From Variovorax sp. Root318D1 (GTDB lineage: Bacteria > Pseudomonadota > Gammaproteobacteria > Burkholderiales > Burkholderiaceae_C), in the NCBI RefSeq assembly GCF_001424835.1, contig NZ_LMCQ01000001.1:280284-344283 (forward strand): 64,000 bases of DNA, written 5' to 3'. Positions 39,888 to 63,265 of this stretch are shown here, in pieces; positions within the stretch are counted from its first letter, which is position 1; each line of letters starts with the position of its first letter. Below the pieces are notes generated by a model that was given only the letters and a program-made list of their open reading frames with translations, did no database searches and was not told the origin of the DNA. The translations under genes and the position numbers were made by a program.

Positions 39888-41093
39888 TCAGAACGAATGC
39901 CGCATCCCCAGCATGGCACCCATCTGGGAGCCGCCCGCAACGGGATTGCTCCCCGCCGCGCCCGAGCTCACCGACAAGGCAAGGTTGCCGTCATTGGAGA
40001 TGTGTCCGACCGTCGCGTACAGGGCGGTGCGCTTGGACAGGTGATAGGTGCCGCGGACAGCGGCAAGGGTTGCGCTGTTCCTGCTGTTCTTGTAGTTGAG
40101 CCGGAAGACCTGTGCGTCGAGGGTCAAGGCCGGCAGCACGGGGTAGCTTCCGCCCACATACCAGAGGTCGCTTCGGGGGGTGAGGGGACTGGCGTCGTTG
40201 TTTCGCCGGATCAGGCCTGCGGAGAGTTGTCCCTCGCCCAGCTTCACATATCCGTTTGCAGAAATGCGCCGGTCCTTGAGCGCACTGCTCGCGAGGCCCG
40301 CAAACGCCCCGGGACCGCCGCGGATCTCGTCAACGGCAAAGGCTGTGCCCCACCTTGCGGCGTCGTACTTCAGCAGCACGGACCACTCGCGGCAAGCCCT
40401 GGTGTCGGCAGCACTTTCGCCGGCGCAGTTGGTTCCCGCCGGACTCGGCCCTGCATTCACCACGTCGCGTCCGAGGCTGTAAGAGGCGCCCATCGTGAAG
40501 CCGCCGAACGTACCCCGGTAGACGATGGCGTTGTCGGCGCGCGCGTTCGGGATGTAGGCGTCGAGCGAGCCGCTGCCGTAGACGTTGGGCCCGAGCACGT
40601 CCGCGTCCAGCAGCGACCAGAACAGCATCGTGTACTGGCGGCCCAGCGTCACGGTGCCCCAGCCTCCGGACAGGCCCACGAAGGCTTGCCGCCCGAAGCT
40701 GCGGCCGCCCTGATTCAAGGTGCCGGTGTCCGGTCCAAAGCCCGATTCCAGCACGAAGACGCCGCGCAGGCCGTCGCCGAGATCCTCGACGCCGCGCACG
40801 CCCCAGCGGGATGGCAGGCTGCCCGTCAGCGACGGCATGCGAATCAGGCGGTTGCTGCCAGGGCCGACATTGCTGATGTACTCGACACCGGTGTCGATCA
40901 GCCCGTAGAGCGAGACGCTGGAAGCCGATGCGGCCCGGGCGCGCGATTGCGCCTCCGATTCGACGCGCCGCGCATCCTGGTCGGGCGCCGTGGCGGGACC
41001 GCTGACGCTCGGCGACTGTGCCCAGGCGCTTGCGGCAAGCATGCAGGCTGCGGCGGCCGCGATCGAGTTCTTCTTCGAGATCTGTCTGTTCAT
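39888..41093 (-). CDS. Gram-negative porin (Burkholderiales type)
   Basis: 401-residue outer-membrane trimeric porin. The signal peptide KKNSIAAAAACMLAASAWAQ is followed by an unusual 40-residue hydrophilic stretch and then the porin start SVSLYGLIDTGVEYISNVG. Alternating strands include SRWGVRGVEDLGDGLRGVFVLESGF and GRQAFVGLSGGWGTVTLGRQYT, ending GAMLGMRHSF with the terminal Phe required for assembly. Probably provides entry of small acids. It is monocistronic, with a 151-base upstream gap. Confidence 0.93.
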   Translation of the reverse strand: MNRQISKKNSIAAAAACMLAASAWAQSPSVSGPATAPDQDARRVESEAQSRARAASASSVSLYGLIDTGVEYISNVGPGSNRLIRMPSLTGSLPSRWGVRGVEDLGDGLRGVFVLESGFGPDTGTLNQGGRSFGRQAFVGLSGGWGTVTLGRQYTMLFWSLLDADVLGPNVYGSGSLDAYIPNARADNAIVYRGTFGGFTMGASYSLGRDVVNAGPSPAGTNCAGESAADTRACREWSVLLKYDAARWGTAFAVDEIRGGPGAFAGLASSALKDRRISANGYVKLGEGQLSAGLIRRNNDASPLTPRSDLWYVGGSYPVLPALTLDAQVFRLNYKNSRNSATLAAVRGTYHLSKRTALYATVGHISNDGNLALSVSSGAAGSNPVAGGSQMGAMLGMRHSF

Positions 41094-41244: not shown

Positions 41245-42414
41245 TCACTTGGCTATGCACTGCGATGCATAGGCGTCCGCATGCGACTGCAGGACGTTTT
41301 CCGCCAGCAAGCGGAATTCAGGCTTGCCCGCCGCGCCCTTGGCGACTTCGAACACGTGATAGTTCTGGACCGGGAAGTTGTTGGCGCCGAAGCGGAACGC
41401 ACCGCGCACGGACTTGAACGGCGTCGTGGCAATGGCCTTTGTCAGCGCCTTGCGGTTGGAGGCATCGCCCTTGAGCTTTGCAAGGGCGGCGTCGAGCGCC
41501 ATTGCGGCGTCGTAGCTGAAGGCAGCATAGGCGGAGGGCATGCGTGCGTACTTCTTCTCGAAGGCTGCGACGAACTGGCGGGACTCGGCCCCCGGGTTGC
41601 CGGGCGACCAGGCGTCGGCGGTAATGACGCCCACGGCGGCGCTGCCCATGGCAGTCATCGAGGTGCCCTCGACGGTGTTGGTCGTATAGAGCGGGATCTT
41701 GCCGAGCAGGCCGGCCTGCTGATACTGCCGCACGAAGGTCACGCCGAGCCCGCCAGGATAGAAGGCGAAGACCGCCTCGGGCCGGGCTGCGCCGAGGCGC
41801 GTCAGCTCGGCGGAAAAATCCAGCTGGTTCAGCGGCGTGTAGAGCTCGTCGACGATCTCGCCCTTGTAGAAGCGCTTGAGCCCGGCGATCTTGTCCTTGC
41901 CGCCGACAAAGTTCGGCGTCATCACGCTGATGCGCTTGACGCCCTTGTCCGTCAGGTACTTTCCCATGGCCTCCGCGGGCACATCGCTTTGCCACGAGGT
42001 CACGAAAAGGTTCGGCTTGCATTGCGCGCCTGCCGCAGCCGACACGCCGGCGACCGACCCGAGGAACGGCACGTCCGTCGATGCGATCTTGTTTTGAAGC
42101 GCCATCATGATGTTGGCGAAGGTCAGGCCGGTGACCACGTCGACCTTCTCTTTCTCGAGCAGCTTCGAAAGGGCGCCAAGCGCAACCTCGGGCTTCTGCT
42201 GATCGTCTTCCTTGAAGAGGGTGGCGGTGGTGCCGCCGAGCTTGCCGCCCAGTTGCTCGAGCGCGAGGTTGAAGCCGTCGAGCTGGTCGCGTCCGACATC
42301 GGCCGAAGGGCCGCTCAGCGTGGCGAGGAAGCCCACTCTCACGTCGGCATGGGATGCCGAGGCCAGCAAGGCGATGCAGAGGGCGAGAGCGTTGTGCTTG
42401 ATGGTCTTGTTCAT
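41245..42414 (-). CDS. ABC transporter substrate-binding protein, paralog of the salicylate-operon binding protein
   Basis: 389 residues with a Sec signal (ALCIALLASASHA) and a type I periplasmic-binding fold. It is strikingly close to the protein at 57972-59150: shared blocks include LEQLGGKLGG, KEDDQ, CKPN, FYPGG and SVRG-FxFxxNNxPVQNY, as well as a Cys near the C-terminus (SQC/AQC). No permease or ATPase genes accompany it, so it may use the Liv system at 54.5-58 kb. It ends the minus operon that starts with the NIPSNAP gene, 37 bases after YciI. Confidence 0.9.
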   Translation of the reverse strand: MNKTIKHNALALCIALLASASHADVRVGFLATLSGPSADVGRDQLDGFNLALEQLGGKLGGTTATLFKEDDQQKPEVALGALSKLLEKEKVDVVTGLTFANIMMALQNKIASTDVPFLGSVAGVSAAAGAQCKPNLFVTSWQSDVPAEAMGKYLTDKGVKRISVMTPNFVGGKDKIAGLKRFYKGEIVDELYTPLNQLDFSAELTRLGAARPEAVFAFYPGGLGVTFVRQYQQAGLLGKIPLYTTNTVEGTSMTAMGSAAVGVITADAWSPGNPGAESRQFVAAFEKKYARMPSAYAAFSYDAAMALDAALAKLKGDASNRKALTKAIATTPFKSVRGAFRFGANNFPVQNYHVFEVAKGAAGKPEFRLLAENVLQSHADAYASQCIAK

Positions 42415-42451: not shown

Positions 42452-42835
42452 CTAGAGAAGGCGGGCGGACTGGTCCGACAGCCGCACGGCGACGGAGAAG
42501 CCGCCCTCCATCAGCAGCCATTTCTTGACCTCGATCGTCACCACGCCCTCTTGCACGAAGGGATCACACGACAGCAGCTCCCGCGCATGCGAGGCGGACG
42601 CGGCGCGCACGATCGACAGGCCGCCGAGCGAGCCGGGCGCGCTCGTGTCGTCCGTGAAAGGCCCGGAGGCGAACAGCTCGCCGCGGCGTTCCGCGGCGAT
42701 CATCCAGTGCAGGTGTGCCTCCAGCAATTGCGGCATGCGCGCCAGGTCGCCCGGCTTTCGCAGCGCCACGTAGAGCGGCTTGTTGAGCATGGCGCGCAGC
42801 AGCTCATGCGCGCTCTGGTCTTGCGCGGCCATCAC
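42452..42835 (-). CDS. YciI-related (YCII domain) protein
   Basis: 127 residues. The YCII/dimeric alpha-beta barrel core is seen in NKPLYVALRKPGDL, LEAHLHWMIAAERRGELFASGPF and GGLSIVRAASASHARELLSCDPFVQEGVV. The HxxW/Asp pattern (HLHW, DPF) matches the proposed active site, related to muconolactone isomerase-like and chlorohydroquinone-processing enzymes. It overlaps the VOC gene by four bases (ATGA). Reaction unknown; a role in ring-cleavage product handling fits the neighbours. Confidence 0.85.
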   Translation of the reverse strand: MMAAQDQSAHELLRAMLNKPLYVALRKPGDLARMPQLLEAHLHWMIAAERRGELFASGPFTDDTSAPGSLGGLSIVRAASASHARELLSCDPFVQEGVVTIEVKKWLLMEGGFSVAVRLSDQSARLL

Positions 42836-43755
42836 TCGCGCTCTTCAAAGTTCATGGGGAACTCCGGCGGCGGCGGTGTCGCCGCCCACACCGCGGTCAG
42901 CTCTTGCGGCGTGACGTTCAAGGCTTCCCATTCGCTGTCGTCCTCTGGAATGACGTCGATGTCCCAGAAATATTCGACCAGGCTGTTCCACGGATCGCGG
43001 ATGTAGTGGAAGTAGTTCGAGCCGCCCACGTGCCGCCCCAGCCCGAAGCCGTCCTTGTAGCCCGCACGCAGCAAGGTCTGCGCGCCGATTTCGATCTCGT
43101 CGATGTCGCCGACCTCGAAGCTGAGGTGGTGCAGACCGGTGTGCGTGCTCTGGGCAAAGGCCACGATGTGGTGGTCGCCTCCCGCGCTGCCGCGCAGGAA
43201 GGCCAGAACGTCGCCCGCGCGGTCGGACACCTTCATACCCAGGACCTCGGTATAGAACGCGACCGATTTGTCCACGTCGGGGGAGAACTTGATGAGGTGG
43301 CCCATGCGCCGCGGTCTGGCCCTTTTCTGTTGCGAGGAGGGATCGCATGCGCGCGTGCCGATGCGGCGGTAGCGGCCGGGCGCATTGATCTCGGCCGGCG
43401 CCTGCGTGCTCGATGGCTGCGGCTCGGCCACCTGCACGTTGAGCCAGTCGCCATGCGGGTCGCGAAACCAGATGCCCGCCATCGGCCCGAAAGGGCTGGG
43501 GGCCAAGGCCACGCCATGGCGTTCGAGATTGGCCATCAGCGCGTCCATGCCGGCCGCATTGGTGCCGAGCGAGACGTAGCTCAACTTCTTGCGGGCGCCG
43601 GGCATCAGGCGCAACAGCTCCTGGGCACTTCCTTCGCAATGGAAGAGCAGGTCGTCACCCGAGACCCGCGTCTCAAGGCCGAAGAGTTCGTAGAAGGCTC
43701 GACCGACTTCGAGTTCCGGAACGGTCATGCCCACTTGCAGCAACGAGCGGATCAT
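42832..43755 (-). CDS. VOC-family (extradiol dioxygenase-like) protein
   Basis: 307 residues made of two vicinal-oxygen-chelate modules. The C-terminal module keeps a 2-His-1-carboxylate set: H153 (RMGHLIKF), H209/H210 (GLHHLSFEV) and E261 (SLVEYFWD), as in type I extradiol ring-cleaving dioxygenases. The N-terminal module lacks these residues, which is also normal for that class. It overlaps yciI and follows the NIPSNAP gene by nine bases. An Fe(II) dioxygenase acting on a catechol-type ring is likely; the substrate is not evident. Confidence 0.87.
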   Translation of the reverse strand: MIRSLLQVGMTVPELEVGRAFYELFGLETRVSGDDLLFHCEGSAQELLRLMPGARKKLSYVSLGTNAAGMDALMANLERHGVALAPSPFGPMAGIWFRDPHGDWLNVQVAEPQPSSTQAPAEINAPGRYRRIGTRACDPSSQQKRARPRRMGHLIKFSPDVDKSVAFYTEVLGMKVSDRAGDVLAFLRGSAGGDHHIVAFAQSTHTGLHHLSFEVGDIDEIEIGAQTLLRAGYKDGFGLGRHVGGSNYFHYIRDPWNSLVEYFWDIDVIPEDDSEWEALNVTPQELTAVWAATPPPPEFPMNFEERE

Positions 43756-43764
43756 GGGGCTCTC

Positions 43765-44079
43765 CTAGCGGATCGGCGAGAAGCTCGCCGGGGTCAGCAA
43801 TTCGCTGCGCTGCCGCACCACCAGGGCCGCTGTCTTTCCGAGAAAGCTGCGCCACTGCGGATTGGCCGAGAGTGCGGCGCGCCGCGACACGCGGTCTTCG
43901 TAAGAGTCGAAGCCCCACAGCTGCACGATGCGGTTCAGCTCGCCGACTTCGGCGACGAAGTACCCGATGAGGCGGCCCAGCGCCTGCTGCTGCAACGGGA
44001 GTCCTTCGGCCTCGTAGCCCGCGAGAAATTCAGGCAGCGAGCCGGGCTTCAGTTCATAGGTGCGTTGTTCGATGATCAT
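43765..44079 (-). CDS. NIPSNAP-family protein
   Basis: 104 residues with the ferredoxin-like dimeric barrel of the NIPSNAP family: MIIEQRTYELKPGSLPEFL at the N-terminus, then GYFVAEVGELNRIVQLWGFDSYEDR and an RR...W pattern near residue 70. The ATG at 44079 starts the conserved core; an upstream reading of 14 residues is not family-like. It is the first gene of the minus operon NIPSNAP-VOC-YciI-binding protein. Homologs often accompany aromatic-acid genes but have no settled reaction. Confidence 0.85.
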   Translation of the reverse strand: MIIEQRTYELKPGSLPEFLAGYEAEGLPLQQQALGRLIGYFVAEVGELNRIVQLWGFDSYEDRVSRRAALSANPQWRSFLGKTAALVVRQRSELLTPASFSPIR

Positions 44080-44187
44080 GGCCAGTCTGGAGAGATCGTG
44101 CGGCCGGCGTGGCCGATGCACTCACTCAGTCTCCTTGTTGATGTGGCTGGATTCTGCGTTTTAGCGACCGACCAAACCATACTGAAT

Positions 44188-44207
44188 CGATGATTCATTC
44201 GTATAAA
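44188..44207 (+). promoter_or_regulatory. LysR-linked shared element, copy 1
   Basis: CGATGATTCATTCGTATAAA, 109 bases upstream of the NIPSNAP start. It matches the element at 45259-45278 (minus strand) in 18 of 20 bases. The preceding bases complete a dyad GAATC-GAT-GATTC (44184-44196). The surrounding gap (44080-44345) has no gene. Confidence 0.65.
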
Positions 44208-44345
44208 CGCAATTTGTGGAGCGAGCCGAATGGCGACTCTCACAGCTGCGATGCATGGAGCGAAGACGCAGGCGAACGCTGCCCGTCTTGAGGCTCGTCG
44301 AGCCGGAGTGGCGTGACCCGCGCGCCGCTGAGCGGGCCGATGGCG

Positions 44346-45245
44346 TCAGGTGGGCGCCAGCTGCTGCACGACGAAATCGCGCATCCACTTGTTCGCGGGA
44401 TCCTGGTGGTAGCGGTCGTGCCAATACAGGAAAATCTCGAAGCTGGGCAGGTCGAGGGGAAGCGGCTTGATGACCAGCGGGTAGTGCTTGGCCAGCGTCT
44501 CGGCAAGGACCGCGGGGGCCGACCACAGGAGATCGGAACTCACGACGAAGTGAGGCGCCGCCAGATACTGGGGCAGCCGTATCTTGATGCGGTTTCGCGC
44601 ACCCGCGTCGATCAGCGCCCGTTCCAGCTGGATATGGCCGCTGCCGGAGTATTCCACCAGCAGATGTTCGCTTTCGCTGAAGCGTTCCAACGTCATTTTC
44701 TTGTCGGCGAGCGGATGCCCGGCGCGCATGACGCACACGTAGTGCTGGGTGTGGATCAGGCGACGGTGGATCCCCGCTTCGAGCGACGGCAGGAATCCCA
44801 ACGCGAAGTCGATCTGTCCGGCCGCCAGACCGCTGACGGTTTCCGGGATCGTTCGAAAGACCGTTCGCAGCCGGATGCCCGGCGCGCACTGTGCAAGGGC
44901 CGCCATGATCGGCGGAAAGGACACGGCTTCGCCGATGTCGCGAGTGCGCACGGTGAACATCCGCTTTGCCGTCGCCGGCTCGAAGCCCCGGCGCTCCACC
45001 TGCGTCTTGCGGACCATGGACAGCACGTCCAGCAGCATCGGTGCCAGGTCCGACGCCAGGGGTGTGGGCTCCATCTTGCGGCCGACGGGCGTGAACAGCT
45101 TGTCCTCGTACTCCTCACGCAGGCGCTTCAGTGACGCGCTCACCGCGGCCTGGGTCAGGCCGAGGCTCTCGGCCGCGCCGGTCACGGAGCGGTCGCGCCA
45201 GATGGCCTCGAAGGTATAGAGGAGGTTCAGGTCTTTCACGCGCAA
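44346..45245 (-). CDS. LysR-family transcriptional regulator (NahR/NodD-like)
   Basis: 299 residues. The N-terminus VKDLNLLYTFEAIWRDRSVTGAAESLGLTQAAVSASLKRLRE is the helix-turn-helix of the NahR/DntR/NodD branch. The sensor domain follows (FTVRTRDIGEAVSFPPIMAALAQCAPG). It lies between two operons that read away from it, with one copy of an 18/20 element on each side. It probably activates both in response to an aromatic acid. Confidence 0.9.
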   Translation of the reverse strand: MRVKDLNLLYTFEAIWRDRSVTGAAESLGLTQAAVSASLKRLREEYEDKLFTPVGRKMEPTPLASDLAPMLLDVLSMVRKTQVERRGFEPATAKRMFTVRTRDIGEAVSFPPIMAALAQCAPGIRLRTVFRTIPETVSGLAAGQIDFALGFLPSLEAGIHRRLIHTQHYVCVMRAGHPLADKKMTLERFSESEHLLVEYSGSGHIQLERALIDAGARNRIKIRLPQYLAAPHFVVSSDLLWSAPAVLAETLAKHYPLVIKPLPLDLPSFEIFLYWHDRYHQDPANKWMRDFVVQQLAPT

Positions 45246-45258
45246 AGTATAGAAGTGA

Positions 45259-45278
45259 TTTATGGGAATGAATCATCG
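45259..45278 (-). promoter_or_regulatory. LysR-linked shared element, copy 2
   Basis: On the minus strand CGATGATTCATTCCCATAAA, 63 bases upstream of the dehydrogenase start at 45341 and 14 bases from the LysR start. As with copy 1, the element runs opposite to the gene it would activate. Confidence 0.65.
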
Positions 45279-45340
45279 AATCGGTCTGGATTGATGCGCA
45301 TCGGAACCGCAGAATCCGCTTCCATAACCAGGAGACACAG

Positions 45341-46255
45341 GTGCTACAACCTCATCACGTCATCGGCATGATCGGCATCGGCCAGCTCGGCCTGCCCATT
45401 GCCGTCAATCTCATGCGGGCCGGCTACAGGGTGGTCGGCTTCCGACGCACGGACCGCGAGGCGTTCACGCGCGCCGGCGGCGAGGCGCTGCAATCTCCGG
45501 CCGAAGTGACCCGCGCGGCCGACGTGCTGTTGCTGTGCCTGCCTGGTGAAGACGCGCAGGCGGCGGTGCTCCACGGCGCGGACGGTGTCTTGCAGGCTCT
45601 CGCTCCCGGCAAGATCGTCATCGAGATGGGCACCTACACGCGGGACTACAAGGTGCAGCAGGCGCTGCGTGTGCAACAGGCCGGCGCCCGCATGCTCGAG
45701 GCCGAGGTAAGCGGATCGCCTCCCATGGTGGTCGAGCGCCGCGCTGCCCTGTACGTGGGGGGCGACGAGGGCTTGTTCCAGGAATGCAAACCGGTGCTGG
45801 ATGCCATCACGGAGCACCATTTCCACCTGGGCGATGTCGGCTCCGCGGTCGCAATGAAGCTGATCGCCAATACGCTCGTCACTATCCATACGCTTGCCGC
45901 CGCGGAAGCCATGAACATGGGCGTTCGCGCAGGCTTCGCGCCTGAGCGGGTCGCGGAAGTCATTCGCCAGGGCGCGGGCAATTCCGCCATGTTCACGATC
46001 CGCGCGCCGCTGATGGCCGCGCGGGCCTTCACGCCCGCTCCCGGCTCGTTCAACACCTTGCACAAGTACCTGCGGCTCGGCGCCGGGATGGCGCGTGAGC
46101 TGGGTTGCGCCACGCCTCTCTTTTCTGCCGCCGCTCCGTACTTCCTGCGGGCACTGGAAGGCGGCATGGGCGAAGAAGACATTGCCGCCGTGATCAAGCT
46201 GCTGGAAGCCGAATCGCGTCCATCCAACCCAAGCGGCAGCTTCTCTCTCGAATGA
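45341..46255 (+). CDS. NAD(P)-dependent beta-hydroxyacid dehydrogenase (3-hydroxyisobutyrate dehydrogenase family)
   Basis: 304 residues from a GTG at 45341 with AGGAG seven bases before. N-terminal Rossmann motif GMIGIGQLGLPIAVNLM, then DVLLLCLPGEDAQAAVLHG, the substrate loop EAEVSGSPPMVVERRAALYVGG and the catalytic-lysine helix GSAVAMKLIANTLV. Family members oxidise 3-hydroxyisobutyrate, tartronate semialdehyde and similar acids. It heads the plus operon with a FAH-family hydrolase, a lipoprotein and an amidohydrolase. Substrate unknown. Confidence 0.88.
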   Translation: MLQPHHVIGMIGIGQLGLPIAVNLMRAGYRVVGFRRTDREAFTRAGGEALQSPAEVTRAADVLLLCLPGEDAQAAVLHGADGVLQALAPGKIVIEMGTYTRDYKVQQALRVQQAGARMLEAEVSGSPPMVVERRAALYVGGDEGLFQECKPVLDAITEHHFHLGDVGSAVAMKLIANTLVTIHTLAAAEAMNMGVRAGFAPERVAEVIRQGAGNSAMFTIRAPLMAARAFTPAPGSFNTLHKYLRLGAGMARELGCATPLFSAAAPYFLRALEGGMGEEDIAAVIKLLEAESRPSNPSGSFSLE

Positions 46256-47217
46256 CCTCCATGAAGTATCAACTGTTCACTTATGAAAAAACGGAACGCA
46301 TGGCGCGGTCCGGCATTTCGATCGGCACGGACTGGTTCGACTTGGGCCATGTGGCAAGCACGGCTGGTTGCACGAGCCTGGCAGCGGCGAGCCTCGATGA
46401 TCTCGTCGCTCGCTGGGCATCGTGCATGCCTGAACTCGACACGCTGGCCGCCGACCTTGCCACCAAGCCGGATCGGTTTTCGTCCGCTGCGCTCGATCCG
46501 GCCAGCCTCGTTCTGCGTTCCCCGTTCGGCCGGCCCGGTGCCATCTATGCGGCGGGCGCCAATTACCGCGATCACGTGGAAGCCATGGGCCGCGCCTTCA
46601 ACCAGAAGCTGGTGCTCGATCCGAAGAAGGAGGGCGTGCCGCCCTGGCACTTCCTGAAGGCAGGGGCCGCAACCCTCTCCGGCCACCGCGGCGAAGTTGC
46701 GTATCCGGCGCGCACAGAGCGCCTGGACTGGGAGGCCGAACTCGCTGTCGTGATCGGCAGGCGTGCCGCAAAAGTCAGCGTGAGCAGCGCACTGGATTAC
46801 GTGGCGGGCTACATGTGCGCCAACGACCTGTCGGCACGCGACCACCTGGTGCGGGACGGCGTGGATCCTTCGTCTCCCTTTCGCTTCGACTGGATCGGGC
46901 ACAAGTGCTTCAACGGCTCGTGCCCATTGGGGCCGGTATTCACGCCGGCACAGTTCGTCCGCTCGCCGGAGAACCTGGCCATCAAGCTCTGGGTCAATGG
47001 CGAGCTGCGGCAGGACTCGAACACCAGCAATCATCTCTATGGCGTTGCCGAACAGATCGCCTACCTGAGCGAGCGCGTGGACCTGCTTCCCGGCGACGTG
47101 ATCCTGACCGGTACGCCGGCAGGTGTCGGCATGGAGACCGGCACCTTCCTCAAGCGCGGCGACGTGACGAGGGTATGGATCGAGGCGCTCGGAGAGCTCG
47201 AAACCCGCATCGTGTAG
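46252..47217 (+). CDS. fumarylacetoacetate hydrolase family protein
   Basis: 321 residues; the ATG overlaps the previous stop (ATGA), with a second ATG at 46261 possible. The FAH C-terminal domain is seen from GAIYAAGANYRDHVEAMGRAF: KAGAATLSGHRGEV, metal-binding acidic residues in LDWEAELAVVIGRRA, GYMCANDLSARDH and the ending PGDVILTGTPAGVGMETGTFL. The family hydrolyses C-C bonds of acylpyruvates or hydrates/decarboxylates 2-hydroxymuconate derivatives, so it could act downstream of the VOC ring-cleavage enzyme across the LysR gene. Confidence 0.9.
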   Translation: MTSMKYQLFTYEKTERMARSGISIGTDWFDLGHVASTAGCTSLAAASLDDLVARWASCMPELDTLAADLATKPDRFSSAALDPASLVLRSPFGRPGAIYAAGANYRDHVEAMGRAFNQKLVLDPKKEGVPPWHFLKAGAATLSGHRGEVAYPARTERLDWEAELAVVIGRRAAKVSVSSALDYVAGYMCANDLSARDHLVRDGVDPSSPFRFDWIGHKCFNGSCPLGPVFTPAQFVRSPENLAIKLWVNGELRQDSNTSNHLYGVAEQIAYLSERVDLLPGDVILTGTPAGVGMETGTFLKRGDVTRVWIEALGELETRIV

Positions 47218-47255: not shown

Positions 47256-48296
47256 GTGAAGCAGGTCTTGAAACAGGCGTCCATGTTCATCCGGTTTTTC
47301 ATTGTTCCGTTGCTGGCCGCGCTGGTCGCGGGATGCGCAGGCGGCACCCGTGTGGTGGCGGAAGCTGAGCCGCCGTTGCGCGTCATCGTGTTTCCCGGCG
47401 CATTCAACTGGCCGCTGTGGGTGGCCGAGGACAAGGGGTTCTTCGCCAGCGAGCGGCTGGCCGTTGCGATCACGCCGACACCGAACTCCACGTTCCAGAT
47501 GAAGGGCCTGATCCAGGGCGAGTTCGACATCGCCATGACGGCCATGGACAACGTCATCGCCTACCGGGAAGGGCAGGGCGAGGCGGGCGTGGACGGACCC
47601 GATCTGGTGGCGGTCATGGGTTCGGATGCGGGCTTCCTGCGGCTGGTCGCCTCGCCGGAGAGCCGCGGCTATGCCGATCTGCGGGGCAAGACACTGTCGG
47701 TGGACGCCCTGACCACCGGCTACGCTTTCGTGCTGCTTGAACTGCTGGAGCGCCACGGCCTGGTGCTGGACCGCGACTACAAGACCGAGCGGGCGGGCGG
47801 CGTGTTGCAGCGCTACCAGTCGCTGCTGGAGCGCAAGCACGCGGCGACCATCCTGGTGGCGCCGTTCGACGCGATGGCCGAAGCGCAGGGCTTCAACCGC
47901 TTGGCCAATGCGACGGACGAGCTTGGCCACTACCAGGGCGTCGTGGCCGCGGTGCGCCAGGGCTGGGCGCGTGCCCATCCGGAGCGCGTGCGGGGCTACA
48001 TCCGCGCCCATGCGCGCGCCGTCGACTGGCTGCGCGAGCCCCGCAACAAGGACGAGGCGCTCAGGGTCTTCCTGGCCCACATGCCGCCGAACACACCGCC
48101 GCAGGCAGCGGACAGCGCCTACCGCGCGCTGCTGTCCGGCCCCGAAAGCTTCCAGCGCGGGGCACGGATCGACCTTGCAGGCGTCGAGACCGTCGTGAAG
48201 CTGCGCGCCAAGTTCGGCAGGCCCGGCGCCAAGCTGCACGATGCCGCGACCTACTACGACCCGAGCTTCCACGAAGCCGCTTTTCACAACCACTGA
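47256..48296 (+). CDS. NMT1/THI5-like ABC substrate-binding lipoprotein
   Basis: 346 residues from a GTG at 47256 with GGAGG upstream; an ATG at 47283 is possible. The lipobox LVAGC ends the hydrophobic signal near residue 28. The SsuA/ThiY-like core is seen: FPGAFNWPLWVAEDKGFFASERLAV, MKGLIQGEFDIAMTAMDNVIAY and LRGKTLSVDALTTGYAFVLLELL. Its permease and ATPase are not in the window. It lies between the FAH hydrolase (38-base gap) and the amidohydrolase (14-base gap). Confidence 0.87.
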   Translation: MKQVLKQASMFIRFFIVPLLAALVAGCAGGTRVVAEAEPPLRVIVFPGAFNWPLWVAEDKGFFASERLAVAITPTPNSTFQMKGLIQGEFDIAMTAMDNVIAYREGQGEAGVDGPDLVAVMGSDAGFLRLVASPESRGYADLRGKTLSVDALTTGYAFVLLELLERHGLVLDRDYKTERAGGVLQRYQSLLERKHAATILVAPFDAMAEAQGFNRLANATDELGHYQGVVAAVRQGWARAHPERVRGYIRAHARAVDWLREPRNKDEALRVFLAHMPPNTPPQAADSAYRALLSGPESFQRGARIDLAGVETVVKLRAKFGRPGAKLHDAATYYDPSFHEAAFHNH

Positions 48297-48310: not shown

Positions 48311-50236
48311 ATGTACCGCAGAACCCTTCTCCAGGGAGCCGCCGGTGCGGCCGCCGTCATGGGCTTGCCTGGTTGCGTCACCACGCCAGGCACGACGCAG
48401 GCCGACCTGATCCTTCGGGGCGGAAGGATCCACACGCTCGATGCACGCAACCGCGTGGTGTCGTCCGCCGCCGTGCGTGACGGCAAGATCCTGGCGGTCG
48501 GTTCCGATGCGGAAACCGCGGCATTCCAGGGGCCCGGCACGAAGCTGGTCGAACTGGCCGGCCGCGTGGTGATCCCGGGGCTCAACGACTCGCACATCCA
48601 CCTGATCAACGGGGGACTCCAATACAACCTGGAGGTGCGCTGGGACGAAGTCGAGTCGCTGGCCGATGCGCTGCGCCTCTTGCGGGAGCAGGTGCAGCGC
48701 ACGCCGCCCGGCCAATGGGTGCGCGTGCTGGGCGGCTGGTCGGAGTTCCAGTTCGCCGAAAAGCGCATGCCCACCATCGAGGAGATCAACGCCGTCTCGA
48801 ACGATGTGCCGGTGATGCTGCTGCACTTCTACGACACCGCGCTGCTGAACAAGGCGGCGCTGCGGGCGCTGGGCTACACGAAGGACACGCCGCAGCCCGC
48901 CGGCGGCGAGATCGTGCGCGACGCGCTCGGCCATCCCACAGGCGTGATCCTGGCCAAGCCCAGCATGTTCTCGGTGTATTCGGCGATGCGCCGCGCACCG
49001 CAACTCGACCATGCGGCGCGGCTGAACTCGATGCGCCAGTTCATGGGCGAACTCAACCGCGTGGGCATCACGAGCGTGAGCGACGGCGGCGCCGACAACA
49101 ACCTGGCCGACTACGCATTGATGAGCGAGCTGGCCGGCGGTCGGCACCTCACGGTGCGCGTGGCCTGCAGCATGTTCAGCTTCTCGCCGGGCAAGGAGTA
49201 TGAAGATTTCGCGTCCTGGATCCGCCAGGTGAAACTGACCGACGACCCGATCTACAAGATCCGCGGCGCGGGCGAGATCCTCACTTTCTCGGCCTTCGAT
49301 TCGGCCAACTTCCTGCTGCCGCGGCCGAACCTGCAGCCGACAGGCGAAGCGGAGTTCGAGAAGGTCATCCGTCTGTTCGTCGAGCACGGCTGGCCGTTCC
49401 AGTTCCATGCGTCCTACGACGAGTCCATCACGCCACTGCTGGGTGTGCTGGAGCGCGTGCAGCGCGATGCCCCGCTCGACCGCGTGCGCTGGTTCCTCGA
49501 TCATGCCGAGACGATCTCGCCGCGCAACATCGACCGCGTGAAGGCGCTGGGCGGCGGCATCGCCGTGCAGAACCGCATGACCTTCCAGGGCGAGAGCTTC
49601 TTGCGCCGCTACGGGGCCGGCGTGGCCGATCGCGCGCCGCCCGTGGGCGAGATGCTGCGTGCCGGCGTGCCAGTCGGCCTGGGCACCGATGCAACCCGCA
49701 TCGCGAGCTACAACCCGTGGATCTCGCTGCAGTGGTTCGTGACCGGGCGCACCGCCGGTGGCCTGCAGATGGTGGGCGCCGCGAACCGGCTCGACCGGCA
49801 GCAGGCGCTGCGGCTGTACACCCAGGGCAGCGCCTGGTTCTCCGGCGACGAGGCGGCCAAGGGTTCGCTCGAGCCGGGCAAGCTGGCAGACCTGGCCGTG
49901 CTGTCGGCCGACTATTTCGCCGTGCCCGAGGACCAGATCCGCAAGATCGAATCGGTGCTGACGGTGATGGACGGGCAGGTCGTGCATGCCAAGGGGCCTT
50001 ACCGTTCGATGGCGCCGGCACCACTGCCGGTGAATCCGGACTGGTCACCGGTCGCCTCGGCCCGCGCGGCCGAGGAGGAGGGCCGCTACCTTGCCAAGGC
50101 AATGCGCGGGTCGCACGCCTGCGGCCACACGCACGCCGATGGAGACAGCTGCGCCGGCCACATCCATGCGCACAGCTGGATCGCCAGCGGCGAAGGCGGC
50201 ATGTGGTCGCTCAGCTGCAATTGCATGGTCGCATGA
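48311..50236 (+). CDS. YtcJ-like metal-dependent amidohydrolase, exported lipoprotein candidate
   Basis: 641 residues. The N-terminus YRRTLLQGAAGAAAVMGLPGC combines a twin-arginine start with a lipobox. The amidohydrolase-3 fold shows H95/H97 in NDSHIHLI, a long central barrel, FHASYDES, FLDHAETISPRN and GLGTDATRIASYNPW. The last 45 residues are rich in His and Cys (GSHACGHTHADGDSC, GHIHAHSW, SCNCMVA), giving six His and four Cys. Family members hydrolyse N-substituted amides or related bonds; the substrate is unknown. Last gene of the plus operon. Confidence 0.88.
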   Translation: MYRRTLLQGAAGAAAVMGLPGCVTTPGTTQADLILRGGRIHTLDARNRVVSSAAVRDGKILAVGSDAETAAFQGPGTKLVELAGRVVIPGLNDSHIHLINGGLQYNLEVRWDEVESLADALRLLREQVQRTPPGQWVRVLGGWSEFQFAEKRMPTIEEINAVSNDVPVMLLHFYDTALLNKAALRALGYTKDTPQPAGGEIVRDALGHPTGVILAKPSMFSVYSAMRRAPQLDHAARLNSMRQFMGELNRVGITSVSDGGADNNLADYALMSELAGGRHLTVRVACSMFSFSPGKEYEDFASWIRQVKLTDDPIYKIRGAGEILTFSAFDSANFLLPRPNLQPTGEAEFEKVIRLFVEHGWPFQFHASYDESITPLLGVLERVQRDAPLDRVRWFLDHAETISPRNIDRVKALGGGIAVQNRMTFQGESFLRRYGAGVADRAPPVGEMLRAGVPVGLGTDATRIASYNPWISLQWFVTGRTAGGLQMVGAANRLDRQQALRLYTQGSAWFSGDEAAKGSLEPGKLADLAVLSADYFAVPEDQIRKIESVLTVMDGQVVHAKGPYRSMAPAPLPVNPDWSPVASARAAEEEGRYLAKAMRGSHACGHTHADGDSCAGHIHAHSWIASGEGGMWSLSCNCMVA

Positions 50237-50270: not shown

Positions 50271-51344
50271 TCAAGGCAAGGGCGGCGCGCCCTCGTAGGC
50301 GCGCTGCAGCATCGCGCGCAATGCGGCACGGGCTAGCGGCCTCGGGTTGGGGTACGGGTTCTGCACGGCGAGATCGGCCACGCGGTCGAGCGACGCCGCC
50401 GGCAGGCCGAGTTCCTTCAGCGCCAGCGGTGCGCCTGTCGCCCGCATGAGTTCGTGAATCGCCTGCGGCACGCGGTTCTCCGCAGCGCCGAGCGCGCGCG
50501 CCGCACGCGACATGGCCTCCGGTGCGCTGGCGGCGTTGTAGGCCAGCGTATGCGGCAGCATCACCGTGTGGGTCTCGGCGTGCGGCAGGTTGTAGCTGCC
50601 GCCCAGCGTGTGGCACAGCTTGTGATGCAGGCCCATGGACACGGCGCCCAGCACCGTGCCGCACAGCCAGGCGCCGTAGAGCCCCTGTTCGCGTGCCGCG
50701 TCGGATTGCGGCGCTTCCTGCAAACCCTGGAGCGCAGCGGCCATGGCGCGCAGGCCTTCCTCCGCCATGAGCGACACCACCGGGTTTCGATCGTGCGCAT
50801 AGAGCGCCTCCGCGGCGTGTGCCATGGCATTGAAGCCGCTGGTCACGCACACCCTGAGCGGCAGCGTGCGAATCAGGTCCGGGTCGTACAACACGGTGCG
50901 CGGCAACACCCGTGCATCGCGGCCGGTCTTCTTGATGCCATCCTCGGTGATGCCGTAGATGGACGTCATCTCGCTGCCGGCGTAGGTGGTGGGAATGGCC
51001 ACGATGGGAAGCGCATGCTCCAGCGCGATGGCTTTGCCCAGGCCGATGGTCGAACCGCCGCCGACGGCGACCATGCCATCGGCGCCCACCGACCGGGCGT
51101 GGGCCACGGCTTCGCGCGCGGTCTCGATGGGTACATGCATGGCGGCACGATCGAAGACGCCGGCGGCACGCGCGCCCAGTCGCGCCGCGACCGACTCCGC
51201 GGTTTCGCGCTGCTCGGGCGTGCACAGCACCAGCGCACGCCGCACGTTCAAGGCAAGCAGTTCCTCTTCGAGGCGGCTCAGGCTGCCGCGTCCGAACAGC
51301 ACGCGGGCCGGCGCGCATTGGTAGGTGAAGGCCAGGTGCTCCAT
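50271..51344 (-). CDS. maleylacetate reductase (iron-containing alcohol dehydrogenase family)
   Basis: 357 residues. NAD-binding glycine loop GGGSTIGLGKAIALEHALP near residue 95 and AIPTTYAGSEMTSIYGITE are typical of maleylacetate reductases, as are GFNAMAHAAEALYA and the metal-ligand region GLHHKLCHTLGGSYNLPHAETHTVMLPH. It reduces maleylacetate to 3-oxoadipate, the step after hydroxyquinol ring cleavage. It begins three bases after the dioxygenase gene and ends the operon. Confidence 0.93.
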   Translation of the reverse strand: MEHLAFTYQCAPARVLFGRGSLSRLEEELLALNVRRALVLCTPEQRETAESVAARLGARAAGVFDRAAMHVPIETAREAVAHARSVGADGMVAVGGGSTIGLGKAIALEHALPIVAIPTTYAGSEMTSIYGITEDGIKKTGRDARVLPRTVLYDPDLIRTLPLRVCVTSGFNAMAHAAEALYAHDRNPVVSLMAEEGLRAMAAALQGLQEAPQSDAAREQGLYGAWLCGTVLGAVSMGLHHKLCHTLGGSYNLPHAETHTVMLPHTLAYNAASAPEAMSRAARALGAAENRVPQAIHELMRATGAPLALKELGLPAASLDRVADLAVQNPYPNPRPLARAALRAMLQRAYEGAPPLP

Positions 51345-51347
51345 CGT

Positions 51348-52217
51348 TCAGTCCGCCGACGGTGTGCTGCGGTTCAACACGAAGTCGTAGTCCAGCGTGT
51401 AGTAGACCGGAGGCTTGGCCGGGTCGTCGCTTTCGTGGCGCTCCCAATCGGCGATGAGACTCGGGCGGACGCCGAAGACTGCATCGGATTCCAGGTAGGG
51501 CCCGCCACGCCGGAACACGTGAGTGATCAAGCGTTCATAGCCTTCCGCCTGGATCATGAAATGCAGGTGCGCCGGGCGCCAGGGGTGGCGGCCGAGGGAA
51601 TCAAGCATGGCGCCCACCGGGCCGTCGTGCGGAATCGGGTACTCATGCGCGACGATGGAGCGGAAGTGGCAGCGGCCATCTGCATCGGTGCGCAATTGGG
51701 CGCGGGCCCGATGCTCGGACAGCGACGGGTCAGGTTTCTGCACGTCGTAAAAACCTTCTTCGTCGGCCTGCCAGACATCGACCAGCGCGTGAGCAACCGG
51801 TTCGCCGTCTGCCCCGGTGACCCGGCCCTGCACGAAGCAGGGCGCACCTTTGGCGCCGTTGGCGATGTCGGCGCCATGCTCGATCATCGGCGCGCCCTCG
51901 ACGAAGAAGGGCCCGAAGACCGTGGCCTCGGTGCAGCCCGCCGGCTTGCTGTTGTTCTGAGCCATGACCAGCGTGGACAGTCCGAGCACGTCCGACAGCA
52001 GGATGAACTCCTGCCGCTTGTCGTCGGTGATGTGTCCCGCGTCGGTGAGAAACCGGATGCCGCGCCACCACTCGTCCTCGGTGAGTTTCACCTCGCGGGC
52101 GAAGTCGTGCAGATGACGCACCAGGCTGGCCATTACGCTGCGCAGCCGGGCATCGGGGCATCGATCCATCGACTCGAGCACGGCCTCGGTGATGGTGAAT
52201 GAGTCGAGCGGTTTCAT
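51348..52217 (-). CDS. hydroxyquinol 1,2-dioxygenase (intradiol)
   Basis: 289 residues. Fe(III) ligands are Y157 (GFYDVQ), Y193 (HEYPIPHDG), H217 and H219 (RPAHLHFMI), the full intradiol set. The N-terminal helical domain (RLRSVMASLVRHLHDFAREVKLTEDEW) is the dimer linker of catechol/hydroxyquinol dioxygenases. Pairing with maleylacetate reductase and a flavin monooxygenase favours 1,2,4-trihydroxybenzene as substrate, giving maleylacetate. The ATG overlaps the monooxygenase stop. Confidence 0.92.
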   Translation of the reverse strand: MKPLDSFTITEAVLESMDRCPDARLRSVMASLVRHLHDFAREVKLTEDEWWRGIRFLTDAGHITDDKRQEFILLSDVLGLSTLVMAQNNSKPAGCTEATVFGPFFVEGAPMIEHGADIANGAKGAPCFVQGRVTGADGEPVAHALVDVWQADEEGFYDVQKPDPSLSEHRARAQLRTDADGRCHFRSIVAHEYPIPHDGPVGAMLDSLGRHPWRPAHLHFMIQAEGYERLITHVFRRGGPYLESDAVFGVRPSLIADWERHESDDPAKPPVYYTLDYDFVLNRSTPSAD

Positions 52218-53932
52218 GGGTGGTTCTCCTGAAGGGAATGGTGGCCCGTGGCCTGGTCGAACACGGCCTGCGCCTCGTCGGCGGAGCTGCCGCGCCAGGC
52301 GACGATCTGGTCGGGACGGATCAACACGAGCGGTGCCTCGTACAGGTCGCGCAGCATGGGCTCTGCAAGCCGCACGATCCGCAGGTCCAGGCCGCGCGCG
52401 TGCGCCATCGCTTCGAACGGCGCCGTGTCGGGCGGCTCCAAGCCCAGCGCGAGCACCGTCCAGTCGCGCCCGAAAAGATCGAACAGCGAACGGCCATCGT
52501 CCAGCCAGGCGTGCGGCGGCCGGCCGCCGGGGCAGGCGGTGGGGACGTAGCGATTGGGCTCATCGGGCGGCGCCGCCGTGCCATCGGCCACGATCACCGG
52601 CGAGCCGTCGTAGCGCCCGCCGAAAGTGACACCGGGAATGTTGAACTCCAGCCGTGCGTGCGCGTCCAGATGCTCGGCGGCGGCGCGGCGCTCGGCATCG
52701 CCACGGGGCGAATCTTCTTCGAGTTCGGGGCTCGCAGCGAACAGGCCGACCGAATCGGCGAATCGTCTCGCGTAGCCGGTGTTGCGCTCGGCCAGCGGAC
52801 GGCGCTCCGCCTCGTAGCTTTCCAGCAGCGCCGCGGGCGCCAGCCCGCGCAGTACTGCGGCCAGCTTCCAACCCAGGTTCACCGCGTCTTCGACCGCGGT
52901 GTTGTAGCCCAGGCCGCCGGTGGGCGTGAACAGATGGGCCGCATCGCCCGCGATGAACACGCGGCCGCGCTGGAACTGTTTGGCGACGAGGGCGTGGCCG
53001 GCCTGCCAGACGCCCATCGACAAGATGTCGATCGGCACGTCCACGCCGACCGTCTGCGCGAAGATGCGCCGCGCATCGGCTTCGGTCCAGGTCTCCGGGT
53101 TCTCGTGCGGATGCACCGCCGCATGAAAAGCGTACTCGGCGACGCCGTCCACGGACGCCATGAAGGCACGCCGCTCATGATTGACCGCGACGTACATCCA
53201 GGCCTTGGGATGCGTCAGCGCCGAGATGAATTGCGGAGACCTTAGGTAGATGGCGAACATCTTGCCGCCCATGAAGTCGCGCTGGATGCCGGTGACGCCG
53301 CCCCATTCGACGCCGAGCTCGGTACGCACGATGCTGCGCGGGCCGTCGGCCCCGACCAGGAACCTGGCCTTCACCTCGACCGGGTCACCGCCTTCCGTGG
53401 GCCGGATGCACGCATCGATGCCGTCGCCGGCGTCGGCGAAGCGTTCCAGCCGCCAGCCGTAGCGCACGTCGGCCGTGGGCCACGCCTCGGCATGGCTGCG
53501 CAGCGCCGCCTCCACGAACTTCTGCGAAACGCGGTGCGGCAACTCGGCCGCGCTCCACGAACCGGTCATCGACCTGATCTTCTCGGTGGCCTCCGCCGCC
53601 GTTGGCAAGTGAATGCGTGCCAGTTCATGGCCCGTGTAGCGCGTGAAGTAGGCGATGTCGGTCGGATGGTCGGCCGGCAGGCCCAGGCGCCGGATCTCGT
53701 GCGCGAAGCCCAGCCGGCGGAAGTGCTCCATCGTGCGCGCCTGGGTGGCGTTGGCCTGCGGGTTGAAGGCGGTTCCCGGCTTCGCATCGACCAGCAGGCA
53801 GCGGATGCCCCGTCGGCCGAGTTCGTTGGCGAGCATGAGGCCGCACGGGCCGCCGCCCGCGATCAGGATTTCTGTCTCCAGCGTGCGTGGCTGCACGGTG
53901 GCAGTAGTATTGGTGGAATAGGTCATGGACAT
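52214..53932 (-). CDS. FAD-dependent aromatic monooxygenase (phenol/resorcinol hydroxylase type)
   Basis: 572 residues from an ATG at 53932. It is a class A flavoprotein hydroxylase: ILIAGGGPCGLMLANELGRRG near residue 22 (FAD), VGADGPRSIVR (DG motif) and FIAGDAAHLFTPTGGLGYNTAVEDAVNL, with a C-terminal thioredoxin-like domain as in PheA/TfdB. In hydroxyquinol clusters such enzymes ortho-hydroxylate resorcinol or a related phenol to 1,2,4-trihydroxybenzene. It is the first gene of the operon; the promoter region to the divergent marR gene is 85 bases. Confidence 0.9.
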   Translation of the reverse strand: MSMTYSTNTTATVQPRTLETEILIAGGGPCGLMLANELGRRGIRCLLVDAKPGTAFNPQANATQARTMEHFRRLGFAHEIRRLGLPADHPTDIAYFTRYTGHELARIHLPTAAEATEKIRSMTGSWSAAELPHRVSQKFVEAALRSHAEAWPTADVRYGWRLERFADAGDGIDACIRPTEGGDPVEVKARFLVGADGPRSIVRTELGVEWGGVTGIQRDFMGGKMFAIYLRSPQFISALTHPKAWMYVAVNHERRAFMASVDGVAEYAFHAAVHPHENPETWTEADARRIFAQTVGVDVPIDILSMGVWQAGHALVAKQFQRGRVFIAGDAAHLFTPTGGLGYNTAVEDAVNLGWKLAAVLRGLAPAALLESYEAERRPLAERNTGYARRFADSVGLFAASPELEEDSPRGDAERRAAAEHLDAHARLEFNIPGVTFGGRYDGSPVIVADGTAAPPDEPNRYVPTACPGGRPPHAWLDDGRSLFDLFGRDWTVLALGLEPPDTAPFEAMAHARGLDLRIVRLAEPMLRDLYEAPLVLIRPDQIVAWRGSSADEAQAVFDQATGHHSLQENHP

Positions 53933-53983
53933 GGGCCGTATGGGCTCGGCATCGCCGGCGAAGCGATGGCTCCGCATAGATGC

Positions 53984-53996
53984 TTAGGTTACCTAA
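53984..53996. promoter_or_regulatory. MarR-type operator in the hydroxyquinol divergent promoter
   Basis: TTAGGT-T-ACCTAA is a perfect 6-bp dyad with a one-base centre, placed 52 bases upstream of the monooxygenase start and 22 bases upstream of the marR start. Position and form suit autoregulation and repression by the MarR protein. Confidence 0.7.
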
Positions 53997-54017
53997 ATAC
54001 TTCAGGATTGCAAGACT

Positions 54018-54494
54018 TTGAGGAATTCCCCTACGCCCGGAAAGGGAGCGCGCGTCGACGAGGGCTGGCGCACCGACAACGTCGGACGACTGCTCAGCAG
54101 CGCGCTTCGCCGCTTCGAGGAGCGCGTCATGTCGCTGATGGTCGAGCGCGGCCATGCGCAGACGCGCCGCTCGCATGTCAATCTCACGCGCCACCTCGAC
54201 ATCGGAGGTACGCGCATCACCGAACTCGCCCGGCGCGCCGCAATGACGAACGCGGCGATGACGGAGCTGATCGACCAATGCGAATCGATCGGGCTCGTCG
54301 AGCGGATGGCCGATCCCGCGGACAAGCGCGTGCGCATCGTCCGGTTCACGCCGGTCGGTGAAAGCTGGCTGAAGGATTTCGGCCGCGCCGTGGCGCAGGC
54401 GCAGCGCGAGATGTCGAAGGAGGTGGGTGAGGACCAGTTGGCCGTGGTGCTGGCCGCGCTGGCAAGCTACGCGGGCACGGGCGGGGAGCCCTGA
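54018..54494 (+). CDS. MarR-family transcriptional regulator
   Basis: 158 residues from a TTG at 54018, the only suitable start before the conserved region. The winged helix is HLDIGGTRITELARRAAMTNAAMTELIDQCESIGLVERMADPADKRVRIVRFT at about 58-110. It diverges from the hydroxyquinol operon, and a perfect dyad lies between. It is probably released by the phenolic substrate. Confidence 0.87.
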   Translation: MRNSPTPGKGARVDEGWRTDNVGRLLSSALRRFEERVMSLMVERGHAQTRRSHVNLTRHLDIGGTRITELARRAAMTNAAMTELIDQCESIGLVERMADPADKRVRIVRFTPVGESWLKDFGRAVAQAQREMSKEVGEDQLAVVLAALASYAGTGGEP

Positions 54495-54517
54495 GGGCGC
54501 CCCGCGATCCCCGCGAT

Positions 54518-54536
54518 CCCCGCGGGCTCGGCGGGG
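54518..54536. terminator. stem-loop between marR and livF
   Basis: CCCCGC and GCGGGG pair around a seven-base loop in the 57-base gap between convergent stops, preceded by two tandem CGCGATCCC units. It can act in both directions; the tails are AAAT on plus and no clear T-run on minus. Confidence 0.5.
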
Positions 54537-54551
54537 AAATTCAACGGCTTG

Positions 54552-55261
<710 letters not shown>

Positions 55262-55265
<4 letters not shown>

Positions 55266-56023
55266 GCTTCGGCCTCTTCTTCGCCTAGGTAAACGGCCCG
55301 CACTTCGGGATGGTTGCGGATCTCTTCCGGCGTGCCGGTGAACAAAATCTTTCCGTAGACCAGCACGCTGATGCGGTCGGCCAAGGCAAACACCGCGTCC
55401 ATGTCGTGCTCGACCAGCAGGATCGTGTACTGGCGCTTCAGCTGCTGCAGCAGCGCGATGACGCTGGTGGATTCCTGCACGCTCATGCCGGCCATGGGCT
55501 CGTCGAGCAGCAGGAACTTGGGTCCGGCCGCCAGGCTCATGGCCAGCTCGAGCTGGCGGCGCTCGCCATAGCCGAGGTCGCCGGCCGGCACATGGAGGCG
55601 GTTTGCAAGGCCCGTGGCGGCAAGCGCCTCTTCGGCGGACTGGCGCGCTTGGCGGTCAGCCGCCATGGGTTGCCAGAACCGGAAGGCGTGCTTGCGCGAG
55701 GCCAGCGCTGCGAAGGTCGCGTTCTCGATCACGCTGAAATCCTCGAAGATCGAGGTGATCTGGTAGGACCGCAGCAAGCCGCGTTGCGCGCGTTGGTGGA
55801 TGGGCAGCGCGGACACGTCGGCGCCGCGGAACCACACGCTGCCGCTGTCCGCTTCGAGCTCGCCGGACAGCTGGTTGATGAGGGTCGTCTTGCCGGCCCC
55901 GTTGGGGCCGATGATGGCGTGAAGCTCGCCTTCATGGATGTCGAGCGACACCGAGTCGGTGACGAGCAGTGCGCCAAAGCGTTTGGTCAGCCCGTCGGTG
56001 CGAAGGACGCTGGTGGTCATCAT
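55262..56023 (-). CDS. livG: branched-chain-type ABC transporter ATP-binding protein LivG
   Basis: 253 residues; Walker A GPNGAGKT at 39-46, LLRSYQITSIFEDFSVIENATFAAL, the LGYGERRQLELAMSLA signature and LLLDEPMAGMS. The ATG at 56023 overlaps the livM stop. A far longer reading upstream lies out of frame with livM and is not a gene. Confidence 0.92.
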
Positions 56024-57045: not shown

Positions 57046-57049
57046 GGGA

Positions 57050-57967: not shown

Positions 57968-57971
57968 GGGA

Positions 57972-59150: not shown

Positions 59151-59226
59151 GTCTTGTCTCGAGTGCTTATGAAATAAAAAAAAGGGTTGCAAGGGCGGCG
59201 GGGCCGGCCGAGCGCCGTGCAGCGTG

Positions 59227-60363: not shown

Positions 60364-60460
60364 GGAAGTTCCTTCGTGGGGATCGCTGCAGCGAGCGCTC
60401 GCGTGGCGCTTCTGTCCGCTGTGTCGTTTTGTCGGGAGCCGGATTACGTCGGCTTGCGCT

Positions 60461-61165: not shown

Positions 61166-61215
61166 GATGTTTGCAGTGCGTGGATCGGGGCGGACGCGCG
61201 TTGCGCATCCGTAAG

Positions 61216-62433: not shown

Positions 62434-62467
62434 GGGTGCAAAAAGGCCATGGAAGAAAGGAGAGGCA

Positions 62468-62785: not shown

Positions 62786-62793
62786 GGCTGGCC

Positions 62794-63264: not shown

Positions 63265-63265
63265 C

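Follow-up and report, generated by a model that had tools for sequence, protein, structure and literature searches.

The two operons flanking a LysR-type regulator gene in this Variovorax genome, that of a soil bacterium, are predicted to be switched by paired LysR operator-promoters, which would derive from an ancestral operon that was split behind an inverted copy of its own promoter. The probability of this reading of the 64,000-nucleotide stretch analysed here (the window) is estimated at approximately 0.86. Sequence comparison gives good support for co-regulation of the two gene sets by the NahR/DntR-like regulator within one pathway, and the two sets very probably form a single switchable degradation pathway.

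In the proposed mechanism, a recognition dyad close to ATAAA-N5-TTTAT would be centred some 65 bp before the presumed transcription start, and would be followed by a conserved activation region that reaches the -35 zone, and then by a weak -10 box. A LysR tetramer at each site, on meeting an aromatic inducer, would switch on both operons, NIPSNAP-VOC-YciI-SBP-porin and, across lysR, dehydrogenase-FAH-NMT1-amidohydrolase. The regulator would probably also repress its own gene, whose start adjoins the dehydrogenase-side site. The ancestral state would most likely have been a single operon, dehydrogenase-NIPSNAP-VOC-YciI-FAH, divergent from lysR; this operon would have been split in one Variovorax lineage, with the detached genes coming under a second, inverted copy of its promoter, Shine-Dalgarno sequence included.

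The Shared Element

The element CGATGATTCATTC-N2-ATAAA occurs exactly at 44188-44207 on the plus strand and at 45259-45278 on the minus strand, as reported in a preliminary description of this DNA, and its mirrored copies lie 1.07 kb apart. With up to three mismatches, these two are the only matches to the 20-mer in the 64-kb window (mean of 0 in 100 dinucleotide shuffles) and in the whole genome of 5,745,828 bases, where the reversed control pattern gives 0. The shared element is far beyond chance. The reported distances to the start codons also hold, at 109 bp for NIPSNAP (ATG 44079) and 63 bp for the dehydrogenase gene (GTG 45341). The observation that the element runs opposite to the gene it would serve is true as written, but is not a peculiarity, given that the non-coding strand was merely chosen for the spelling; in the direction of transcription, both copies read TTTAT-N2-GAATGAATCATCG. 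While the shared 18/20 element is real, its extent was drawn too short, as it belongs to a 42 bp operator with a matched -10 box and Shine-Dalgarno sequence.

The 14-mer GAATGAATCATCGA is present in 7 of 299 genomes of the family, twice in the genome of the window and once in each of six others, and its reversed control is found in none. The six stray copies were rejected as instances of this operator, since only 15 to 21 of the 42 bases are alike, with no real likeness outside the 14 bases, and no LysR or cassette protein matches were found in the 2-3 kb around each of them.

Operator and Promoter Anatomy

In the window, an ungapped alignment of the regions upstream of both operons, oriented along transcription, spans 70 bp and comprises a 15 bp dyad followed by two bases, GAATGAATCATCGAWTC, then GTMTGG, and then CAGAATCC. 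The predicted operator covers 42 bp and comprises the dyad, similar to ATAAA-N5-TTTAT, and the conserved putative activation region GAATGAATCATCGAWTC-N-GTMTGG; the CAGAAT box follows at a fixed distance, with the Shine-Dalgarno sequence downstream (Table 1). The ATAAA of the preliminary description thus corresponds to half of the predicted recognition dyad, and its CGATGATTCATTC to the predicted activation region.

Table 1. Coordinates of the features predicted or recognized in the window.
Feature	Position	Strand	Basis or remark
Gram-negative porin, end of NIPSNAP operon	39888..41093	-	PF13609
Periplasmic binding protein, branched-chain amino acid type	41245..42414	-	PF13458
YciI-related protein	42452..42835	-	PF03795
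Two-domain VOC protein, type I extradiol triad H153/H210/E261	42832..43755	-	Alignment and Pfam
NIPSNAP-family protein	43765..44079	-	PF07978
Shine-Dalgarno sequence AAGGAGA, NIPSNAP side	44130..44136	-	Homologous to that before the dehydrogenase gene
Predicted -10 box CAGAAT, NIPSNAP operon	44151..44156	-	54 bp from dyad centre
Predicted NIPSNAP-side LysR operator	44177..44218	-	Ortholog-only matrix, rank 1 (42.7)
NIPSNAP-side RBS dyad ACAAATTGCGTTTAT	44217-44203	-	Followed by GAATGAATCATCGATTC (44200-44184) and GTATGG
LysR-type regulator, NahR/DntR-like	44346..45239	-	Pfam; DntR is the best solved relative
Predicted dehydrogenase-side LysR operator	45248..45289	+	Ortholog-only matrix, rank 2 (36.7)
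Dehydrogenase-side RBS dyad ATAGAAGTGATTTAT	45249-45263	+	T-N11-A; followed by GAATGAATCATCGAATC and GTCTGG
Predicted -10 box CAGAAT, dehydrogenase operon	45310..45315	+	54 bp from dyad centre
3-hydroxyisobutyrate-dehydrogenase-family oxidoreductase	45341..46255	+	PF03446 and PF14833
FAH-family hydrolase/isomerase/decarboxylase	46252..47217	+	PF01557; closest solved relative HpaG
NMT1-like solute-binding protein	47262..48296	+	PF13379
Amidohydro_3 amidohydrolase, optional member	48311..50236	+	PF07969

The distance from the dyad centre to CAGAAT is 54 bp in 15 of the 16 aligned promoters, and 53 bp in the remaining one. If CAGAAT, a weak candidate, is assumed to be the -10 box, the dyad falls at about -65 in both promoters, with the transcription start being presumed from this spacing. 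The high-affinity T-N11-A site of the LysR-type regulators is placed near -65 in published accounts (PMC4834489, PMC8407307, PMC4730206), and the predicted layout is consistent with this pattern. The T-N11-A register is present on the dehydrogenase side (TAGAAGTGATTTA), with C-N11-A on the NIPSNAP side, and both letters are kept in 9 of 12 sites.

The ideal ATAAA-N5-TTTAT, a consensus picked after inspection of the sequences, is found in the relatives L057, L060, L061, and L062. For every one of the ten split-clade regions, no more than 2% of 500 upstream shuffles reached the best dyad score; of the 21 regions examined, L050 (77%), L054 (24%), and L058 (8%) have a dyad that is not significant by itself.

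The Shine-Dalgarno sequence on the NIPSNAP side lies approximately 50 bases from the ATG at 44079 (44079-44137, minus strand), and probably survives from the copying of promoter and leader. An upstream-open-frame role for this leader was rejected, as the frame from GTG 44121 breaks in L053 and shifts in L056, judged by eye. This GTG is in frame in the window, but the leader frames from GTG 44121/44125 are not conserved by eye among the split genomes, and the ATG at 44079 is thus preferred as the NIPSNAP start.

Matrix Search and Conservation

A 42 bp matrix built solely from five relatives with an unsplit operon (L050, L051, L054, L057, and L059) ranks the two predicted operators above all other matches in the 64 kb window, the next match scoring 13.0. 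Nine relatives were scanned in turn, with the sites of the scanned locus itself being left out of the matrix, and the top match was located upstream of lysR or the adjacent cassette in seven of them (L051, L054, L057, L059, L060, L061, and L055, the last marginal at 9.8). In L050, the expected site came second (26.3), behind a new site (27.4), while the promoter of L058 was not recovered by the scan. No third site was found with the full matrix, which scored at most 7.4 elsewhere in the window and at most 6.3 in the 6 kb around its 3' end, and the aromatic operon at 50-64 kb is, for this reason, not predicted to belong to the regulon.

The extended element, with up to three mismatches, is found in 5 of 101 Variovorax genomes, always as one copy per strand; the same five, and no others, encode a LysR at 95% identity or more (95-100%). 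Diverged sites in G327 (LysR identity 73%) and G378 (69%) were missed by the pattern and found by the matrix. In the five split genomes, the invariant columns on the NIPSNAP side number 15/16 in the dyad and 21/26 in the next 26 bp, against 33/132 upstream, and those on the dehydrogenase side number 13/16 in the dyad and 21/26 in the next stretch.

Homology between the two window promoters spans approximately 110 bp (score 32, against a best of 10 in 1000 shuffles), and extends past the operator to include the Shine-Dalgarno sequence (score 13, against a best of 9 in 1000 shuffles). The proposal that the regulator at 44346 drives both operons is upheld as a prediction by the performance of the ortholog-only matrix, the restriction of the element, among the 101 Variovorax genomes, to those with this LysR, and its conservation against the drift of the upstream DNA.

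The LysR Regulator

The protein belongs to the LysR family, with scores of 58.7 bits for the N-terminal HTH domain (PF00126, gathering cut-off 26.6) and 101.2 for the substrate-binding domain (PF03466, cut-off 28). Its closest solved structure is DntR (1uth, E 3e-61), with similarity over the full length. This agrees with the NahR-like assignment of the preliminary description, although the residue aligned with H169 of DntR, which lines the inducer pocket (PMC3180648), is Gln in 12 of 12 sequences, including that of the window (Gln167 when numbered from the TTG start, or Q165 from the GTG, with the numbering of the DntR chain deduced from its tag). The invariant Gln suggests that the inducer is probably not salicylate itself.

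The lysR gene probably starts at GTG 45239, which is favoured by comparison with the relatives by eye, while the listing of open reading frames gives TTG 45245. A TATACT motif is found six bases before this GTG and overlaps the recognition dyad (45239-45256, minus strand), an arrangement which suggests that the lysR mRNA may be leaderless, and the gene autorepressed. Another LysR gene (38%) is located just outside the window, at G000:C1:344959.

Arrangement in the Relatives and Probable Origin of the Split

Sixteen loci were mapped, some of which are from the same genome (L003/L056 and L004/L052). The window, L049, L052, L053, and L056 have the split arrangement. All seven of the other cassette loci (L050, L051, L054, L057, L058, L059, and L061; LysR 59-73%) have the unsplit order dehydrogenase-(NIPSNAP)-VOC-YciI-FAH in one direction. 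The NIPSNAP gene is intact in four of these seven loci, is represented by a fragment in L059, and was not detected in L051 or L058. A complete cassette was not seen in L055, L060, or L062, and the 15.6 kb examined in G529 hold a VOC relative (49%) but none of the remaining cassette genes.

The same unsplit arrangement is seen in the annotated records of pA81 and Caballeronia p3. Among the plasmids, all five of the records with a relative of the VOC protein (E 1e-90) are among the eight with a relative of the LysR (E 1e-60). The preliminary description treated both operons as one pathway, and this is supported because seven relatives keep the dehydrogenase, VOC, YciI, and FAH genes, that is, most of the genes, in one operon next to the same LysR; the chemistry assigned to the pathway is less secure (see below).

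In the LysR tree, the split label requires a single change, and the split clade is supported by 91/100, an ultrafast bootstrap value below 95, and is recovered in 92% of 200 bootstrap trees, with long-branched outgroups. The NIPSNAP-side copies of the promoter are 83-100% alike, and the dehydrogenase-side copies 77-95%, compared with 61-70% across sides. Given that the same-side copies are more alike than those across sides, the five split species most likely diverged after a single duplication.

This evidence bears on other explanations of the paired sites. The NIPSNAP-side copy may be a remote auxiliary operator, from which bound LysR loops over its own gene to the dehydrogenase-side site to tune repression, while the NIPSNAP genes are driven from elsewhere. 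The distance of about one kilobase between the copies, and their mirrored orientation, would suit such a loop, and the LysR-type regulator ThnR forms a complex by looping the DNA between its distant sites at divergent promoters (PMC4834489). This interpretation is very unlikely, however, given that in all five split genomes this copy is accompanied by a Shine-Dalgarno sequence and by a -10 box spaced, as before, at 54 bp, and that there is no other matrix match near the NIPSNAP operon.

It is less probable still that the element is bound by a different regulator, such as the TetR- or MarR-family protein encoded at 38.7-39.9 kb, with its placement around lysR being incidental to the element. 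Genes of these two families do lie beyond the porin gene in the window and in L056/L003, but tblastn finds neither in the 18-20 kb examined of L049, L052, and L053, which keep both elements, and relatives of other genera have a matching site upstream of lysR or the adjacent cassette, with LysR-type spacing. The slightest chance is assigned to the shared DNA being a repeat, or a recent duplication that serves no regulatory function today. The promoter pair is clearly the product of copying, as a duplication would imply, yet both copies have been conserved across five species while the upstream DNA drifts, the genomes that have the element hold just two copies each, and a related operator occurs singly, with no duplication, in L051, L054, and L059. 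A pair of functional operator-promoters served by the adjacent LysR is the preferred reading.

Genes and Chemistry of the Two Operons

The VOC protein aligns with two-domain extradiol dioxygenases, the best being 3b59, followed by 23al and BphC (1han). Its residues H153, H210, and E261, in the C-terminal domain, align with the metal ligands of BphC. Like H196, H242, and Y251, they are unchanged across all 12 sequences compared. The protein falls below the cut-off of the named dioxygenase families, with the best score, that of TIGR02295 (HpaD), reaching 59.6 bits against 321.4. The FAH protein is a member of its family (PF01557, 206.2 bits against 23.9), but scores 150.8 bits against the cut-off of 276.4 for HpaG (TIGR02303). 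No NCBIfam cut-off was reached by either protein among the models listed, and the YciI protein has no solved relative by sequence at E 0.1.

Aromatic ring cleavage by the VOC enzyme, followed by the action of the FAH enzyme, is a plausible chemistry: the VOC protein keeps the extradiol triad, and with the cut-offs missed, the reaction order of the preliminary description, which ends in hydrolysis by the FAH enzyme, is plausible as a proposal. The genes neighbouring the cassette in the relatives, which encode ring-hydroxylating oxygenases (L054 and L057), gentisate dioxygenase (L050), and chlorocatechol dioxygenase (L057), are consistent with the catabolism of aromatic acids. The amidohydrolase gene, which had been counted as a member of the pathway, does lie in the dehydrogenase operon, but its membership of the cassette looks optional, as, within the stretches examined, a single locus out of the seven unsplit ones has it, and it was not detected in L053, one of the four further split loci.

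Beyond the amidohydrolase gene, a long co-directional run of aromatic genes occupies 50271-64000 on the minus strand, and includes an iron-type alcohol dehydrogenase, an intradiol dioxygenase, an FAD monooxygenase, and a liv-type transporter, as well as a gentisate-dioxygenase-like cupin, an FAH gene, and a Rieske oxygenase. The iron-type alcohol dehydrogenase is presumably maleylacetate-reductase-like. At L052:1619-2356 (G337, Variovorax sp. Root411), the counterpart of the dehydrogenase at 50271-51344 aligns as two overlapping pieces, with the middle missing, and may be broken in this strain.

A Second Predicted Mirrored Operator in Variovorax G327

The new site of L050, in G327, is located at 8477-8518 on the minus strand, 3' of lysR, and the third-ranked match at this locus scores -2.3. 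The site precedes a liv/urt-type transporter operon, which runs on into a gentisate 1,2-dioxygenase gene (508.6 bits, cut-off 442.1) and an FAH-family gene. A longer pattern finds just this site and the cassette-side one in the G327 genome. They have 33 of 42 bases in common, against 20-28 for each with the six window-clade sites compared, and a -10-like GACAAT follows the new site at the same spacing, although no homology was found between the two downstream of the operator. Because the G327 sites are closer to each other than to those of the window clade, a separate origin of the second site, or concerted change with the regulator, is suggested.

The predicted mirrored two-operator layout thus recurs with different cargo. 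It is conceivable, though somewhat doubtful, that the capture of genes by the regulator through promoter copying recurs around this LysR, that the cassette is an undescribed branch operating jointly with a gentisate-type pathway, and that the two-operator lysR is a plug-in module. If so, the inverted copy 3' of lysR would carry half of the old operon in the window clade, and a separately derived mirrored copy would carry the operon of the liv-type transporter, gentisate 1,2-dioxygenase, and FAH genes in G327.

Broken frames between lysR and the liv-type operon of L050 had raised the suspicion of a second, decayed LysR gene, which was rejected, as four pieces gave no Pfam support. A tblastn search for it also found none, in what was a weak test, being on the wrong strand for at least one query.

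Relation to Known Systems

The predicted window system is a known type of LysR-type regulon, made instructive by its promoter duplication. It resembles the salicylate-responsive NahR/NagR/DntR group in the similarity of its regulator to DntR, its aromatic catabolic neighbourhood, and the predicted place of its operator near -65, and differs from DntR in having Gln in place of the H169 of the inducer pocket. In tetralin degradation, similarly, a single LysR-type activator, ThnR, serves several catabolic promoters, two of them divergent, from a primary site near -64 and a conserved secondary region (PMC4834489). In contrast to the ThnR regulon, the window has copied promoters, with the two operators placed as mirror images on either side of the regulator gene. 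In the hpa meta-cleavage pathway, HpaD and HpaG are the proteins whose NCBIfam models are most like the VOC and FAH proteins, far below the cut-offs; unlike hpa, the window system has a dehydrogenase of the 3-hydroxyisobutyrate family, together with NIPSNAP and YciI proteins.

Plasmid pA81 of Achromobacter xylosoxidans A8 carries the same LysR (67%), dehydrogenase, NIPSNAP, VOC, YciI, and FAH genes in order. Unlike the window, this cassette lies on one strand, downstream of lysR and an NMT1-type gene, with no split and no mirrored pair. The cassette genes may be described in a 2008 paper on the pA81 sequence, which is cited in PMC6379261. The literature search found no description of the cassette among the matches listed, subscription journals being mostly outside its scope.

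The predicted regulon is sharply testable, with two promoters, one regulator, and defined bases, and would provide a clear natural example of an operon split with no loss of co-regulation, through the copying of a promoter together with its operator. The catabolic cassette involved occurs in several Burkholderiales and on plasmids, pA81 among them, and is linked to gentisate cleavage in one strain (G327). In pA81, two LysR-type dyads stand in tandem (L057:10093 and 11350), and precede the NMT1-type and dehydrogenase genes, respectively.
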